Shown here piece after piece: positions 14,589 to 33,396 of a DNA stretch of 47,455 nucleotides (position 1 is the stretch's first letter; each line of letters begins with the position of its first letter). The notes beneath the pieces are model-generated. The model did not search any database. It was not told the origin of the DNA and saw nothing but the letters and a program-made list of their open reading frames with translations. Position numbers and translations under genes: made by a program. Origin of the DNA: a virus; IMG/VR virus record IMGVR_UViG_3300044726_000050, positions 1 through 47,455 of that record, one strand, 5' to 3'.

Positions 14589-14672
14589 TCCGAGGGAAGG
14601 GAATCGAACCCTTACTCTCCGGAGAGAAGGAGCTTTTAAGGCTCCAGCGTCTACCAATTTCGCCACCCTCGG
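14589..14672 (-). tRNA. tRNA-Leu (anticodon UAA)
   Basis: An 84-nt cloverleaf on the minus strand. The acceptor stem CCGAGGG/CCCTCGG is perfect, the D-arm is GCGAAATTGGTAGACGC, the anticodon stem is GGAGC/GCTCC with loop CTTAAAA (anticodon UAA), a long variable arm (CTCTCCGGAGAG) marks class II, and the T-arm contains GGTTCGATTCC. CCA is not encoded. It reads UUA, a leucine codon used often in the late genes. The first pair is C-G rather than the usual G-C. Confidence 0.96.
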
Positions 14673-27852: not shown

Positions 27853-27925
27853 TAGCTTTACCTCCAATTCAACTACTTTCACGCAGGGACACTGAGAAAT
27901 TTATGCCCTTTTTATGTAGTCTTTC

Positions 27926-27946
27926 GGCATTATTTATGCCTTTTTT
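27926..27946 (+). terminator. Short plus-strand terminator-like hairpin
   Basis: GGCAT/ATGCC (5-bp stem, loop TATTT) followed by TTTTTT on the plus strand. It would block plus-strand transcription entering the promoter region at 28014. The stem is short, so confidence is modest. Confidence 0.4.
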
Positions 27947-28013
27947 CCGCTGTTTCTCAACTGCTGAAAACTGGCTAACCCGTTACTACACAACGACTTA
28001 CGAGGGCGAAGCC

Positions 28014-28043
28014 AGTATACCCCATCCCCCCGGTCATTGTCAA
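28014..28043 (-). promoter_or_regulatory. Sigma70-type promoter
   Basis: On the minus strand TTGACA (28038-28043) and TATACT (28014-28019) are separated by 18 bp. It reads towards 27852 and the small-gene block beyond. The G-rich spacer is unusual. Confidence 0.8.
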
Positions 28044-28100
28044 CCTGTCCTCATTAGGCTACACATCACTATCTTTTTCTCCCATTCTTTTATCCATCTT

Positions 28101-28290
28101 TATATTTATATATATATTATGTATATATATAGTATATAGAGGGGGAGGGGTAGTGTGTGAAAAGCCCGTAAGTCCTTTGTTTGCAACGAGTTACGGGGAT
28201 TCGGGTCGGTAAAGAACGGCAGAAAGAATACCGAAATAGCACAGGAATACTACAGAAATACGGCACAAATAAAAATCGCCTTTCCTGCTG
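28101..28290. other. AT-rich tract with adjacent G-run and repeats: possible origin of replication
   Basis: 28101-28139 is nearly pure A+T (two G). It is followed by a G-rich run (GGGGGAGGGG), a CCCGTAA/TTACGGG hairpin (28165-28197) and two related blocks, ACCGAAATAGCACA at 28230-28243 and a variant at 28252-28267. This combination resembles a DNA-unwinding element with short iterons. It lies within the 27883-28615 gap, where no gene is seen. Inference only. Confidence 0.4.
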
Positions 28291-28615
28291 TATTAGGCAC
28301 TAAAGCGTGTATTCTAATCTACTGTCCTAGAATCACCTCTTTCTATCTAAGGATACGGGGAGATTTGCTAGGTCTCATTCAATACTCAAGCTATTGCAGA
28401 TTGAATACTCAATGAGAACTTGGAAATAAAAGGAACTGAGTGAATAAAGATTTCCGTCCCTATTCACCCCGATAGGCTGGACTCTACAATGTTACCGGCT
28501 TTCGGAAAGTAGATATCTCACTATCTTTGCCGCTATCCAGTTGACTCAGCCATCGCGGACTATATCTGGCACTATTGTCGTTAATACCCGGAAAGATATT
28601 AACATCTGGTAATGA
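28291..28615. other. Non-coding region with serial hairpins
   Basis: No gene seen. Hairpins include ATTCTA/TAGAAT (28313-28332), TCTCATT/AATGAGA (28373-28417), GTGAATA/TATTCAC (28440-28467) and GTTAATA/TATTAAC (28580-28603). It may be an extended leader or an RNA of unknown kind. Confidence 0.5.
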
Positions 28616-28640
28616 TAATCATGCGCTCTATAAGTGGCCT
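28616..28640. repeat. Inverted repeat arm 1 bracketing gene 28649-28846
   Basis: 25 bp, inverted copy at 28862-28886 with 22 of 25 matches. It lies 9 bp beyond the stop codon. It contains ATCATGCG and AAGTGGCCT. On the transcript the two arms could pair almost fully and close a loop around the whole gene. Confidence 0.82.
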
Positions 28641-28648
28641 GAAATAGA

Positions 28649-28846
28649 TTACTTACTGCCGAGTGGATTCATCATCTTGTGATATTCTTCAGGATGATTG
28701 ATAGCGAGATATACAGATATCTCAATCAATGAGCGAAGCTTCTGTATATCATCTTGAGACTTCAGCTTGGATACGATTGATTGCCGGAATAGACCAGCAA
28801 TAGATACGTAACCTTGTAGAGATGGTTCGACGTTAATGTGTTCCAT
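28649..28846 (-). CDS. Hypothetical protein inside an inverted-repeat cassette (65 aa)
   Basis: AGGA before the ATG. A mostly helical protein beginning MEHINVEPSLQGYVSIAGLF with a middle helix (SKLKSQDDIQKLRSLIEISV) and a short end. The gene is enclosed by a 25-bp inverted repeat (28616-28640 and 28862-28886) whose arms stand 9 bp from the stop and 15 bp from the start. Family unknown. Confidence 0.7.
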   Translation of the reverse strand: MEHINVEPSLQGYVSIAGLFRQSIVSKLKSQDDIQKLRSLIEISVYLAINHPEEYHKMMNPLGSK

Positions 28847-28861
28847 TAGTTATTCCTTTCT

Positions 28862-28886
28862 AGGCCACTAACAGAACGCATGATTA
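28862..28886. repeat. Inverted repeat arm 2 bracketing gene 28649-28846
   Basis: Partner of 28616-28640 (22 of 25 matching). It forms most of the leader of the 28846 gene and touches the next cassette's arm at 28894. Confidence 0.82.
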
Positions 28887-28893
28887 GGATATT

Positions 28894-28927
28894 CGTACTT
28901 GAGTGATTGATAAGTGGGCCACTGAAG
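28894..28927. repeat. Inverted repeat arm 1 bracketing gene 28929-29261
   Basis: About 34 bp, inverted partner at 29271-29306, sharing a TTGAGTGATTG core and GTGGGC. It reaches to within one base of the stop codon. Confidence 0.75.
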
Positions 28928-28928
28928 A

Positions 28929-29261
28929 TTAACTTAGGAGCTTTTCTGCCGGTGGAAAGTCGATTGCGTTCTGACGCATCTTTGTAGCGATTTCTTCTAT
29001 CTTCTCAAGTTCATCTCTCTTGAGAAAGTCTAGAATCAATAAATCGCCACAGAATCCGTCCTTTGTCACATACAGACAGTATTCTCTGCCTGAGTGTGTG
29101 TTATTGACGAGAACGATATCATTTCTGTGAAACTCTCGTCTGTTCAATTCCTCTCGGAGAGAAACCTGCAACGTCTTGTCTGTAGGATTCTCTTTATGTC
29201 CTTTTGGAATGAGACAAACGATTTCATCCAGATTTGACCTGTCATTGATGAATAGATACAT
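28929..29261 (-). CDS. Hypothetical protein inside an inverted-repeat cassette (110 aa)
   Basis: AAGGA before the ATG. It has alternating beta/alpha structure (MYLFINDRSNLDEIVCLIPK, then NDIVLVNNTHSGREYCLYVT). The gene is enclosed by a cassette-specific inverted repeat (28894-28927 and 29271-29306). Its predicted fold suggests a small enzyme-like or ligand-binding protein, but no family was recognised. Confidence 0.7.
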   Translation of the reverse strand: MYLFINDRSNLDEIVCLIPKGHKENPTDKTLQVSLREELNRREFHRNDIVLVNNTHSGREYCLYVTKDGFCGDLLILDFLKRDELEKIEEIATKMRQNAIDFPPAEKLLS

Positions 29262-29270
29262 GAGATTGTC

Positions 29271-29306
29271 CTTTCATGTAGCCCACCAACCAATCACTCA
29301 AATACG
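29271..29306. repeat. Inverted repeat arm 2 bracketing gene 28929-29261
   Basis: Partner of 28894-28927 (about 27 of 34 aligned positions). It is immediately followed by the next cassette's arm at 29307. Confidence 0.75.
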
Positions 29307-29331
29307 ATACGGGTGCTCTATTAAATGGCCG
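29307..29331. repeat. Inverted repeat arm 1 bracketing gene 29357-29854
   Basis: 25 bp, inverted copy at 29886-29910 with 22 of 25 matches. It begins ATACGGGTG and ends ATGGCCG, sharing a short core (TGGCC) with the 28616 arm family. Confidence 0.85.
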
Positions 29332-29356
29332 AAGATGCTGGTTGATTGTGGAAGAA

Positions 29357-29854
29357 CTATTCTTCCAAGCAGCGCGTGTAGCAGAAGTCGATAGTCCACT
29401 TCTCGCTTTTCTTCTCGCGATTCTTGTCTCTGTAGAGAGAAAGAATTGTCGTCGCCATCGCAGCGGTTGCGGTCTTGCGCTTTGCTTCGTCCTTTTCATA
29501 CGAAGCGTAGTTGTCCTTGATAAGACGCATAACCATGTCATCATGCATCCCACCTTTGGCAGCAGCGATACGCAAGATACGTGAACCGCCGAGAACCAGA
29601 GCCTTGACAATGCTCACGTTGTTTGCCGTGAGAAAGTCTCGGATGGTTTTCTCATCCAAAGCGAAGAAAGGTTTGTAGTCTGCCTTGATGACAGTCTGGC
29701 CTTTCGTCTTTCCACGCTGAAGGACAACCACCGTTGGAACTGCCAACTGTTGTGCTTCATAAGTCTGGTCAGACTTCTTACGTCGGAACTTGAAGATTCC
29801 GAGTTTCAGAATTGCCTTGTTTGAGGAGTCAGGAGTGTTAGTTGTTGTAGCCAT
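29357..29854 (-). CDS. Hypothetical early protein inside an inverted-repeat cassette (165 aa)
   Basis: AAAGG before the ATG; the first early gene. The N-terminus is basic (KLGIFKFRRKKSDQ), then beta strands (LAVPTVVVLQRGKTKGQTVI), a helical middle (EKTIRDFLTANNVSIVKALV) and a helical C-terminus with a Cys pair (DFCYTRC). Overlapping shorter frames are shadows. Family unknown. The bracketing repeat lies at 29307-29331 and 29886-29910. Confidence 0.75.
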   Translation of the reverse strand: MATTTNTPDSSNKAILKLGIFKFRRKKSDQTYEAQQLAVPTVVVLQRGKTKGQTVIKADYKPFFALDEKTIRDFLTANNVSIVKALVLGGSRILRIAAAKGGMHDDMVMRLIKDNYASYEKDEAKRKTATAAMATTILSLYRDKNREKKSEKWTIDFCYTRCLEE

Positions 29855-29885
29855 TGATACCTTTCGTTGGATTGAATGGCATCGT

Positions 29886-29910
29886 CGGCCACTTAAAAGA
29901 ACACCCGTAT
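29886..29910. repeat. Inverted repeat arm 2 bracketing gene 29357-29854
   Basis: Partner of 29307-29331 (22 of 25). It lies in the leader of the 29854 gene, 31 bp before its start. Confidence 0.85.
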
Positions 29911-30411
29911 CCTTTTTTCTTACTTCTACTAGGTTCTCATGGTTTCTGGCGTTAGTAGAGTTTACCTTTCTCTACAGGCTTGACGCTTCCACTAGTGACC
30001 TACTGGTAGTTTCAGATATTTAGTTCTCAGTTATCTACACCCGTCCCCAACGATGTTACGAGGGACGCAGAAATAGGAACTATCGTCAATACAGCGTGAT
30101 AATGGTTTAATGCTCGGATGAGCGTTCAGAATGAACTAACCAGAATGGTTCTTCATCATCACCGTCAATGAACAACTACTTCATTGACTTGACGATGATA
30201 CACCAGTTACCCCCATCACACGGATGCAGAGAGTCTCATCTTTCTGTCCCAGGGGGAAGCTTGATTACGCTCAACTTTTTACTCCAAAAAGAAAAAAGTA
30301 ATAGCTACAATCAAAGGAATTATTATAGAAAAAAATCAAAACAACTGTCCCTAGAATGTCCTCAAATAGGGACTGGCGCTTTGCGCTAAAAGACTCAATG
30401 TTTTGAGTGAT
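29911..30411. promoter_or_regulatory. Divergent control region
   Basis: No gene seen. It contains hairpins GTCAATGAA/TTCATTGAC (30164-30188, 9 bp), GTCCCTA/TAGGGAC (30347-30373), ACTCAA/TTGAGT (30393-30408) next to the late promoter, and CGTCCC/GGGACG near 30040. A clear promoter for the leftward genes was not found. Confidence 0.5.
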
Positions 30412-30477: not shown

Positions 30478-30996
30478 ATGTATATATCTAAAGAACAATT
30501 AGAGAATAGACTGAAAGGTCAGTCTAGCCTCGAATTGAAGGGCCGTCAAGGAATCGGAAAGCATCGAGAACTTTCTCGCGAAGAAAAGGTTCTCGCAGGA
30601 ATTCTTGCCAAAGTCGATACTCAAGCAAATGTTGCTAAAGCGTTAGGAACAAGTCAAGCTAATGTTAGCAACATTGTTAATGGCAAGGGTGAGAAGAACG
30701 CAGAACTTCAACCTTCTATATCGGCCGCCTCCAAGGAAGTCCGCGAGGCCGTGTCGAATAAAGCCATTGACATCCTAGTCAAATCTCTTGGCGTTGTAGA
30801 AGATAAGGTTCATAAAGAATCGGCGATTGACGCGTCAACTGTAGCCAAGAACATGACCGCGGTTATTGATAGGATGAATCCTAACCGTGGAGCTTCTGAA
30901 GGCTTCTCCCCTAAAATTCTTATTAACATTCATGGCTCTAAGCAGAAAGATGAAGATGCTTATGAGACTATTGATGTTGAGGCGGTCAGCGCATGA
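30478..30996 (+). CDS. Putative terminase small subunit (172 aa)
   Basis: A helix-turn-helix occupies about residues 37-70 (LAGILAKVDTQANVAKALGT then SQANVSNIVNG), followed by a helical middle (EVREAVSNKAIDILVKSL) and an acidic C-terminus. The DNA-binding N-domain, size and position at the head of the late unit, upstream of TerL, fit a small terminase. The gene immediately follows the late promoter. The leader ends AAGGGTT before the ATG. Confidence 0.7.
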   Translation: MYISKEQLENRLKGQSSLELKGRQGIGKHRELSREEKVLAGILAKVDTQANVAKALGTSQANVSNIVNGKGEKNAELQPSISAASKEVREAVSNKAIDILVKSLGVVEDKVHKESAIDASTVAKNMTAVIDRMNPNRGASEGFSPKILINIHGSKQKDEDAYETIDVEAVSA

Positions 30997-31764: not shown

Positions 31765-33396
31765 ATGGATGTTCAAGTCCAATCGACGTTAGAGAAGGAA
31801 TGGACTCCAACTAAAAAGCAGCAGGAGTTAATTCAGCTTCCTTTCTCTATCTTCGAGGCTCTATACGGGGGTTCGGCTGGTTCAGGTAAGAGCGAGATAT
31901 TAATCGTTCTTCCTTTGATTTATGGATTCTATGAACATCCTCTTTTCAAAGGACTTATTCTTCGACGAACTTTCCCCGAGCTTGAGTCAGAAATTATCCT
32001 CCGCAGTAAGGAATGGTATCCCTCTGTCGGTGGAGTTTACAATGAATCAAAACGTCAGTGGACGTTTCCGTCTGGGGCAATTATTAAGTTCGGCCATGCA
32101 GACAAAGAACAAGACGTTAGGAAATACGATACAGCTCAGTACAATTACATTGCTTGGGATGAAAGTACTTCGTTTACTGGATTCCAGTACGAATATCTTT
32201 CAATGTCCCGTGCTAGAAGTCGAACCAGTGACTTACCAGCAATTATTAGAAGCGCCACGAATCCTGGCAACGTAGGTCACACTTATTTCAGAACGAGGTT
32301 TGTTGACCCATATAAGAATGGTGGGAAGATATTAGCAGATTCTAAGACTGGACAGAAGCGAATCTTCATCCAAGCTAAGATTACTGATAATCCTCACATT
32401 CTAAAGGCTAATCCGACTTACATTCAGCAGCTTCAGTCATTACCTGAAGCAGAACGTAGAGCGAAGTTACTAGGAGATTGGTACACTTATCAAGGTCAGG
32501 TATTCAATGAATGGAGGCTTGAGCCACTTTCAGACGAACCTGAAAATGCTAGACACGTTATTGACCCATTCGAGATTCCGAACTGGTGGCCGAAGATTGT
32601 CGGAATTGATTGGGGGTTCAAAGCATATACTTGGGTTGGTTGGGCGGCCTTATCTCCAAAAGGTCGCACTTTTGTCTACCAAGAATATGCAGAGAAGGAA
32701 AAGAAAACAGCTGAGTGGATAAACGATTTCATTAACTTAACGGGCGAACACGCTCAGGAGATTAAAGGAATCAGAATATGCCACTCAGCTACTCAACAAC
32801 GCGGAGAGATGCTAACTATTCTCTCTCAGTTACAGAAGGCAGTAAACGCGAATCACTTCAAGTGTGGAGTGGTTCTAGGAGAAAAGGCTAGAATCTCTGG
32901 GAAGATGTTGGTTCATGAATATCTCCGGTGGACGCCGAAGGCAGATATTCAGAAGTATTTAGAACCATATGATTCAGAGTTTGCTGACCATCTCTTTAGG
33001 AACAAAGGAACTAAGGCTTATGAGAATTACGTTTCAGCTTATAAGCCACAAGAGCCGGAAGTAAATCTTCCTAAGCTCCAGGTTTTTAACACCTGTCAGA
33101 AACTAATAAATGCGATTCCGGATTGCATTTACGACCAGATTAATACTGAGGATGTTGCCGAATTTGCAGGTGACGACCCATACGACGGACTTAGAATACT
33201 ACTTAGCGGCGTCAAAGATTACATGATTCGGGATGCTGCGACGATGGAGAACTTAAAAAGTGTGGAAGCTGCGATTGCTGGGACAGAGGATATTACAAGC
33301 TTGTATCGTAAGCTTGAACATCTTGAGCGCAAAAATCGGCGCGTTACTACGACGCGTAGGCGCCGCTTTTCAATGTCCAACATGCGTCGTCACTAA
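31765..33396 (+). CDS. terL: Terminase large subunit
   Basis: The ATPase has Walker A GGSAGSGKSE (K42) and Walker B YIAWDES (D132, E133), with the coupling motif RSATNPGN after it. The RNase H-like nuclease begins IVGIDWGF (D282) and has later acidic positions near CIYDQ and GDDPYDG. The length (543 aa) is normal. It packages DNA into procapsids through the portal. The ATG follows directly on the lipoprotein stop. The end overlaps another coding frame by 83 bp. Confidence 0.96.
   Translation: MDVQVQSTLEKEWTPTKKQQELIQLPFSIFEALYGGSAGSGKSEILIVLPLIYGFYEHPLFKGLILRRTFPELESEIILRSKEWYPSVGGVYNESKRQWTFPSGAIIKFGHADKEQDVRKYDTAQYNYIAWDESTSFTGFQYEYLSMSRARSRTSDLPAIIRSATNPGNVGHTYFRTRFVDPYKNGGKILADSKTGQKRIFIQAKITDNPHILKANPTYIQQLQSLPEAERRAKLLGDWYTYQGQVFNEWRLEPLSDEPENARHVIDPFEIPNWWPKIVGIDWGFKAYTWVGWAALSPKGRTFVYQEYAEKEKKTAEWINDFINLTGEHAQEIKGIRICHSATQQRGEMLTILSQLQKAVNANHFKCGVVLGEKARISGKMLVHEYLRWTPKADIQKYLEPYDSEFADHLFRNKGTKAYENYVSAYKPQEPEVNLPKLQVFNTCQKLINAIPDCIYDQINTEDVAEFAGDDPYDGLRILLSGVKDYMIRDAATMENLKSVEAAIAGTEDITSLYRKLEHLERKNRRVTTTRRRRFSMSNMRRH

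Follow-up and report, generated by a model that had tools for sequence, protein, structure and literature searches.

Consecutive genes of a virus are each enclosed by complementary arms, candidate leader–trailer helices of their messages

Results

Three consecutive genes are each enclosed by an inverted repeat

The window, by which we mean the whole stretch of DNA analysed (47,455 nucleotides; IMG/VR virus record IMGVR_UViG_3300044726_000050, positions 1 to 47,455), carries three neighbouring minus-strand open reading frames (ORFs), designated genes A, B and C in their order of transcription. They are the first genes leftward from a divergent region that precedes a rep-like gene at 30478-30996. 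Since the genes lie on the minus strand, the higher-numbered arm of each enclosing pair is the 5′ arm of the message; all features of the unit are given for that strand, and the function of all three genes is unassigned. Gene A (29357-29854, 165 aa), recognized as an ORF with homologues in relatives and third-position bias, is preceded by a Shine-Dalgarno-like AAAGG at 29860-29864. Its 5′ (leader) arm at 29879-29911 is complementary to its 3′ (trailer) arm at 29306-29338, with 29 of 33 positions forming Watson-Crick pairs on the RNA and two more forming G·U pairs. Gene B (28929-29261, 110 aa), an ORF with no copy outside this virus in a scan of viral contigs, has a Shine-Dalgarno-like AAAGGA at 29269-29274 and lies between a 5′ arm at 29278-29307 and a 3′ arm at 28893-28922; here 25 Watson-Crick and four G·U pairs leave a single U·U, so that 29 of 30 positions pair. 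The ORF of gene C (28649-28846, 65 aa) follows an AAAGGA at 28854-28859, and its arms (5′, 28862-28886; 3′, 28616-28640) combine 22 Watson-Crick pairs of 25 with two G·U pairs and one U·U. An ungapped, strand-neutral scan returned the same borders for stems B (29307-29278/28922-28893) and C (28886-28862/28640-28616) and placed stem A at 29917-29879/29338-29300. Downstream of gene C, a terminator-like hairpin at 28438-28469 (13 pairs followed by CCTTTT, a consensus match only) probably marks the end of the three-gene unit.

An earlier note on this DNA had described an inverted repeat around each of the three genes, and every pair was found where it had been placed, with small corrections of the coordinates. 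Its description of adjoining cassettes with TGGCC-type cores also holds: the outer arm of C lies 6 bp from the arm of B, the arms of B and A overlap by 2 nt, and a GTGGCC core is common to the arms of A and C and altered in B (GTGGGC/GGCCCAC).

Structure prediction for gene A was weak (pLDDT 66) and gave no structural match. An Rfam scan of the whole window returned no match except one tRNA, whose gene lies among early genes at 14589-14672 on the minus strand. The product of 30478-30996 is a Rep-like or regulator-like protein with an N terminus (MYIS..QL..RL.GQS) that is strongly conserved in all relatives.

The enclosing repeats exceed chance expectation

The repeats enclosing A, B and C are real and well above chance. 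Among inverted repeats with arms up to 1.5 kb apart, they are the top three of the 47-kb window (21, 21 and 20 of 24), and the best repeat in five whole-window shuffles scored 20/24, a value reached in two of the five. By ungapped extension, the three stems score 24, 17.5 and 17.5, followed in the window by a repeat at 13.5. Equal numbers of enclosing repeats in dinucleotide shuffles had been named in advance as grounds for abandoning the observation; in 100 such shuffles of the 1.5-kb region the highest maximum was 14, below all three stems, and across six regions 0 of 100 shuffles reached any stem. Likewise, the three stems of the relative G001 (48 kb) are the top three of its whole record.

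Stems persist around gene A in relatives while other genes turn over

Relatives were found by the terminase (31765-33396), which yielded about a dozen IMG/VR contigs. One of them, IMGVR_UViG_3300012232_000421, encodes identical proteins in the region and is the same virus; six other contigs show the unit in full (L005, L006, L008, L009, L010 and L013). All six carry a homologue of gene A (38, 37, 33 and 23% identical to the window protein) within its own strong stem, the sequence of which is unlike that in the window. Gene A is the sole enclosed gene kept in relatives. Its proteins in L005 and L009 are about 75% identical, and the differences between the two genes are biased to the third position (22, 23, 67). 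Two further enclosed genes are present in L005, two in L008 and one in L009. Relatives with armless genes would have counted against the design: every gene A homologue seen in full has arms, whereas some lower genes do not, namely those of 57 aa in L005 and L008 and of 61 aa in L010. Only the leading genes of each operon, one to three in number, thus follow the design.

A search for the same arms around different genes produced one case. Between arms that are identical in L005 and in L006/L008, the ORFs differ (50 and 56 aa), and the sequences switch where the 5′ arm ends on its inner side and again at the stop codon. The suggestion that the arms are insertion sites for gene exchange therefore receives partial support, as a secondary property.

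Several other features were seen in these contigs. L006 and L008 carry ~30 extra nt relative to L005 between the gene A stop codon and the 3′ arm (L008 7454-7415), with identical arms. On the minus strand of L005 (758-590) and L008 (6575-6409), AGAAAGGAGTGTTGTGAGATT / AATCTCACAACA.. form a strong long-range repeat whose 5′ arm takes in the Shine-Dalgarno sequence and whose 3′ arm falls within the ORF; this layout differs from that of the enclosing stems and is possibly repressive. In L009, a perfect 12-bp repeat (GAATACTAGATA / TATCTAGTATTC; 1000-120, minus strand) surrounds both cassettes and overlaps the outer edge of the first arm.

Searches among annotated phages gave no relatives by DNA, by the rep-like protein or by gene A, and the terminase found matches there at about 30% only. 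Bacterial genomes searched with the terminase gave no match, and a scan of viral contigs for TTAGTGGCCTAGAAAGG returned this virus only.

Pairing is kept on the sense RNA

We next consider the level at which the arms are matched. Mismatches were taken from the strand-neutral scan, in which all are penalized equally, and each stem was then classified on the sense transcript. Ten distinct stems, taken from five lineages, contain 18 G·U, one A·C, nine U·U, one A·A and four other mismatches, and the three window stems contribute eight G·U and no A·C on the sense strand. Selection for a DNA palindrome would give equal numbers of G·U and A·C, so the ratio of 18 to 1 indicates that pairing is kept on the sense RNA; the asymmetry has a one-sided binomial probability of ~4e-5, a figure drawn from five lineages only and from cassettes several of which have a common core and are not independent. 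The long inverted repeat at 27899-28270, which served as an internal control, has little bias (10 versus 8; 23 versus 15 when pooled with three relatives).

Covariation of the arms between phages, which the earlier note had proposed to look for, was observed. When the L005 and L009 stems were compared, 7 of 30 pairs had both partners replaced without loss of pairing and two had changed on one side; 3 of 500 shuffles were as good. The arms thus combine pairing conserved on RNA (18 G·U versus one A·C) with compensatory changes (7/30), as leader-trailer helices do. Taken alone, pairing of the arms at the RNA level can be proposed with very high confidence.

Each stem spares the ribosome binding site and the ORF

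Across 11 cassettes, 16-34 nt separate the end of the 5′ arm from the start codon, and 3-18 nt (mostly 6-9) separate the stop codon from the first position of the 3′ arm; with this spacing, the helix spares just the ribosome binding site (RBS) and the ORF. The helices are 18-38 bp long, that is, over about 17 bp and flanking one gene, as in a leader-trailer arrangement. An internal mismatch is present in every stem except that of L013, and in most it is a U·U.

Folding of the transcripts, run as had been suggested, recovered the stem in the minimum free energy (MFE) structures of 11/11 whole cassettes. In natural context (±350 nt), 63-95% of each 5′ arm was paired with its own 3′ arm. Cognate arm duplexes have predicted energies of -36 to -56 kcal/mol, compared with -9.5 to -26.5 for non-cognate duplexes within the same phage. 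A GTGGCC/GGCCAC core is common to several cassettes, whereas the remainder of every arm is unique, so that a 5′ arm pairs preferentially with the 3′ arm of the same gene. We infer from this pattern that the unique part may act as an address that keeps the loops private. Together, the strand-specific G·U bias, the compensatory changes and the folding in context strongly support the earlier suggestion that each arm pair folds back over a whole gene on the mRNA.

The inner 5′ arm also pairs with the ribosome binding site

The inner part of the 5′ arm is complementary to its own RBS as well, through CTGTCTC/GAGACAG in L005, GATTGTC/GACAATC in L009, and GGTTCTAATC with GATTAGAACC in L013. Measured against a shuffled RBS side, this pairing exceeds chance (Stouffer -7.0, over cassettes that are not all independent), and the same statistic for 31 other genes of the window has a mean of +0.12 (sd 1.0). 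The pairing is clear in most cassettes, with little in gene B, L005_3 and L010. These three apart, the RBS is predicted to be hidden by a strand with which the trigger also pairs, as in a toehold-type switch. Thus, the sequences support two rival partners, the RBS and the trailer, for the 5′ strand, and the stability of the RBS/inner-arm pairing suggests a leader that refolds.

Both the pairing statistics and computed accessibility suggested that the trailer frees the RBS: adding the trailer raised RBS accessibility from 0.39 to 0.53 (p 0.007). This idea was not upheld against shuffled RBS segments, since the rise was no larger than theirs (1.57 versus 1.62 ± 0.46, summed). Until the trailer has been made, pairing of the 5′ arm is divided about equally between the coding region and the RBS.

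Control elements near the unit

Elements resembling boxA (e.g., GTTCTTTGACAACTGAATA) are present in L009, L010 and L013, with matches at 15-17 of 17 positions compared with shuffle maxima of 13-14. They lie on the minus strand (L013, 1800 and 1025; L010, 1850; L009, 1013) and border the first 5′ arm on its outer side; the second element of L013 follows the gene A cassette. No boxA above chance was found in the window, L005 or G001, and no phage-encoded RNase III or antiterminator was found among the proteins scanned.

In addition, 11-nt phased repeats (TTTGTGNNNNN, TTTTTCCGTAG and similar) form two arrays that stand in opposite orientation around an AT-rich stretch. Such arrays occupy 27899-28270 in the window, 5746-6114 in L008, 573-918 in L010 and 491-904 in L013, and the AT-rich stretch between the window arrays contains a promoter-like TTGACA/TATACT (28043-28014, minus strand). 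In sequence, the region at 27899-28270 looks like an iteron-type origin or control region. The 106-nt inverted repeat that it forms was considered as a fourth stem and rejected, because it has little strand bias and is made of the opposed 11-nt phased repeats.

Discussion

Based on these findings, we propose that the arms are per-gene mRNA leader-trailer helices, a reading that takes in pairing, licensing of the message and definition of its ends together and that we hold with slightly better than even confidence. Each pair of 5′ and 3′ arms would close one gene and its RBS into a private loop on the message. During transcription, the inner 5′ arm would fold on the RBS and damp initiation. The emerging 3′ arm would then pair from its unique outer end inward, displacing the RBS and licensing the finished message. 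As in pre-rRNA, the closed helix may in addition define or protect the ends of the message, either by serving RNase III as a substrate or by blocking exonucleases. Host Nus factors may be recruited in some relatives by the boxA-like element that adjoins the first 5′ arm. The most specific form of the proposal, in which translation of each gene waits until its transcript has been completed, by way of a private helix whose 5′ strand serves both the RBS and its own 3′ end, and in which genes can be swapped inside ready-made clasps, is tentative, and we consider it possible rather than probable. If true, such delayed-translation clasps would be a natural cis-acting toehold-type switch repeated gene after gene, an undescribed way to run a phage operon.

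The rival that survives best, although we think it rather unlikely, confines the stems to processing or protection of message ends: they would be RNase III sites or exonuclease blocks from which monocistronic messages are cut out, with the RBS ungated. The range of 18-38 bp fits the rRNA leader-trailer helices cut by RNase III (PMC10250234), the boxA-like element adjoins the first 5′ arm in three relatives, and the test of RBS gating was negative, all as this explanation would have it. However, it leaves the stable RBS/inner-arm pairing, which stands out against shuffles and other genes, unexplained, and short local intergenic hairpins would do as RNase III sites without enclosing genes.

Closed-loop translation, in which the helix sets the stop codon beside its own RBS so that ribosomes finishing the gene start again on that message, appears improbable. 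The tight geometry of the 11 cassettes (3-18 nt and 16-34 nt) implies that the stem can survive translation, but any stem that has to spare the RBS and the ORF should show this geometry, and nothing supports this explanation directly.

Slightly less credible still is a DNA-level origin, in which the arms would mark recombination borders or be what is left of mobile-element ends, and RNA pairing would be a by-product. Gene content varies among relatives, and the ORFs of L005 and L006/L008 differ between identical arms, as such cassettes would predict. Nevertheless, the one-strand excess of G·U over A·C cannot come from selection for a DNA palindrome, and the single exchange seen is explainable by ordinary homologous recombination in conserved arms. 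The decayed mobile cassettes suggested by the earlier note are not supported: the arms differ between cassettes and phages yet stay complementary, and no common terminal sequence of the transposon or integron type and no scattered copy was seen; no recombinase family was found among the proteins scanned, which are part of the ORFs.

Chance or a compositional artefact can practically be dismissed: weak inverted repeats up to 20/24 do arise in shuffles, but none of 100 matched any stem in the six regions, stems recur around the same gene in five lineages, and the both-sided pair changes between L005 and L009 refute it as well.

The proposed leader-trailer helices have a counterpart in Escherichia coli, where complementary sequences flanking each rRNA form helices that are cut by RNase III, with boxA upstream (PMC10250234). 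As in pre-16S and pre-23S rRNA, a helix of similar length closes a whole gene and one transcript carries several such units in a row; the arms vary in sequence yet remain complementary, and a boxA-like element lies upstream in three phage relatives. Unlike the rRNA helices, the phage clasps enclose protein genes, adjoin the RBS and stop codon, and have a 5′ arm that also pairs with the RBS. The window itself has no boxA, and RNase III cleavage and Nus recruitment are only putative in the phage. Among mRNAs, the icaR 3′ untranslated region (UTR) of Staphylococcus aureus pairs with its own Shine-Dalgarno region and is an RNase III substrate; the authors discuss leader refolding when the 3′ end is made, and hok mRNA is mentioned in the same paper (PMC3868564). 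The phage units resemble icaR in that the 3′ and 5′ UTRs of one mRNA pair with each other, and the refolding logic may be common to both. They differ in that the icaR 3′ UTR covers the Shine-Dalgarno sequence and represses, whereas the phage 3′ arms listed here all pair upstream of it and compete with the RBS, and in that many phage genes stand in series, each with private arms. The phage units share the geometry of rRNA and possibly the logic of icaR, and differ from both.

In the hok mRNA of plasmid R1, 5′-3′ pairing and timed refolding control translation, the full-length folded form being inactive; hok is a single toxin gene with an antisense RNA. The pairing within one message is alike, while neither a toxin nor an antisense RNA was identified in the phage unit. 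In cluster K mycobacteriophages, the SAS/ESAS elements repeat at translation starts, about half with imperfect 17-bp inverted repeats (PMC3203893). Both ESAS repeats lie upstream with a common consensus, in contrast to the arms described here, which stand on opposite sides of each gene and differ between genes. In T7 early mRNA, RNase III divides the operon into single-gene messages at local intergenic hairpins; phage operon and double-stranded RNA are common to both cases, but the pairing here spans each gene. A literature search of open-licence papers found no phage precedent for per-gene enclosing helices.

In bacteria, rRNA and individual messages such as icaR and hok are known cases of long 5′-3′ pairing across an entire gene. 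If the proposal is true, a phage lineage that clasps gene after gene, with private arms and a pairing that outlasts near-complete turnover of sequence, would extend the closed-domain design to mRNAs, and it would offer natural, orthogonal cis-acting clasps with which to test how transcript completion is coupled to translation and decay.
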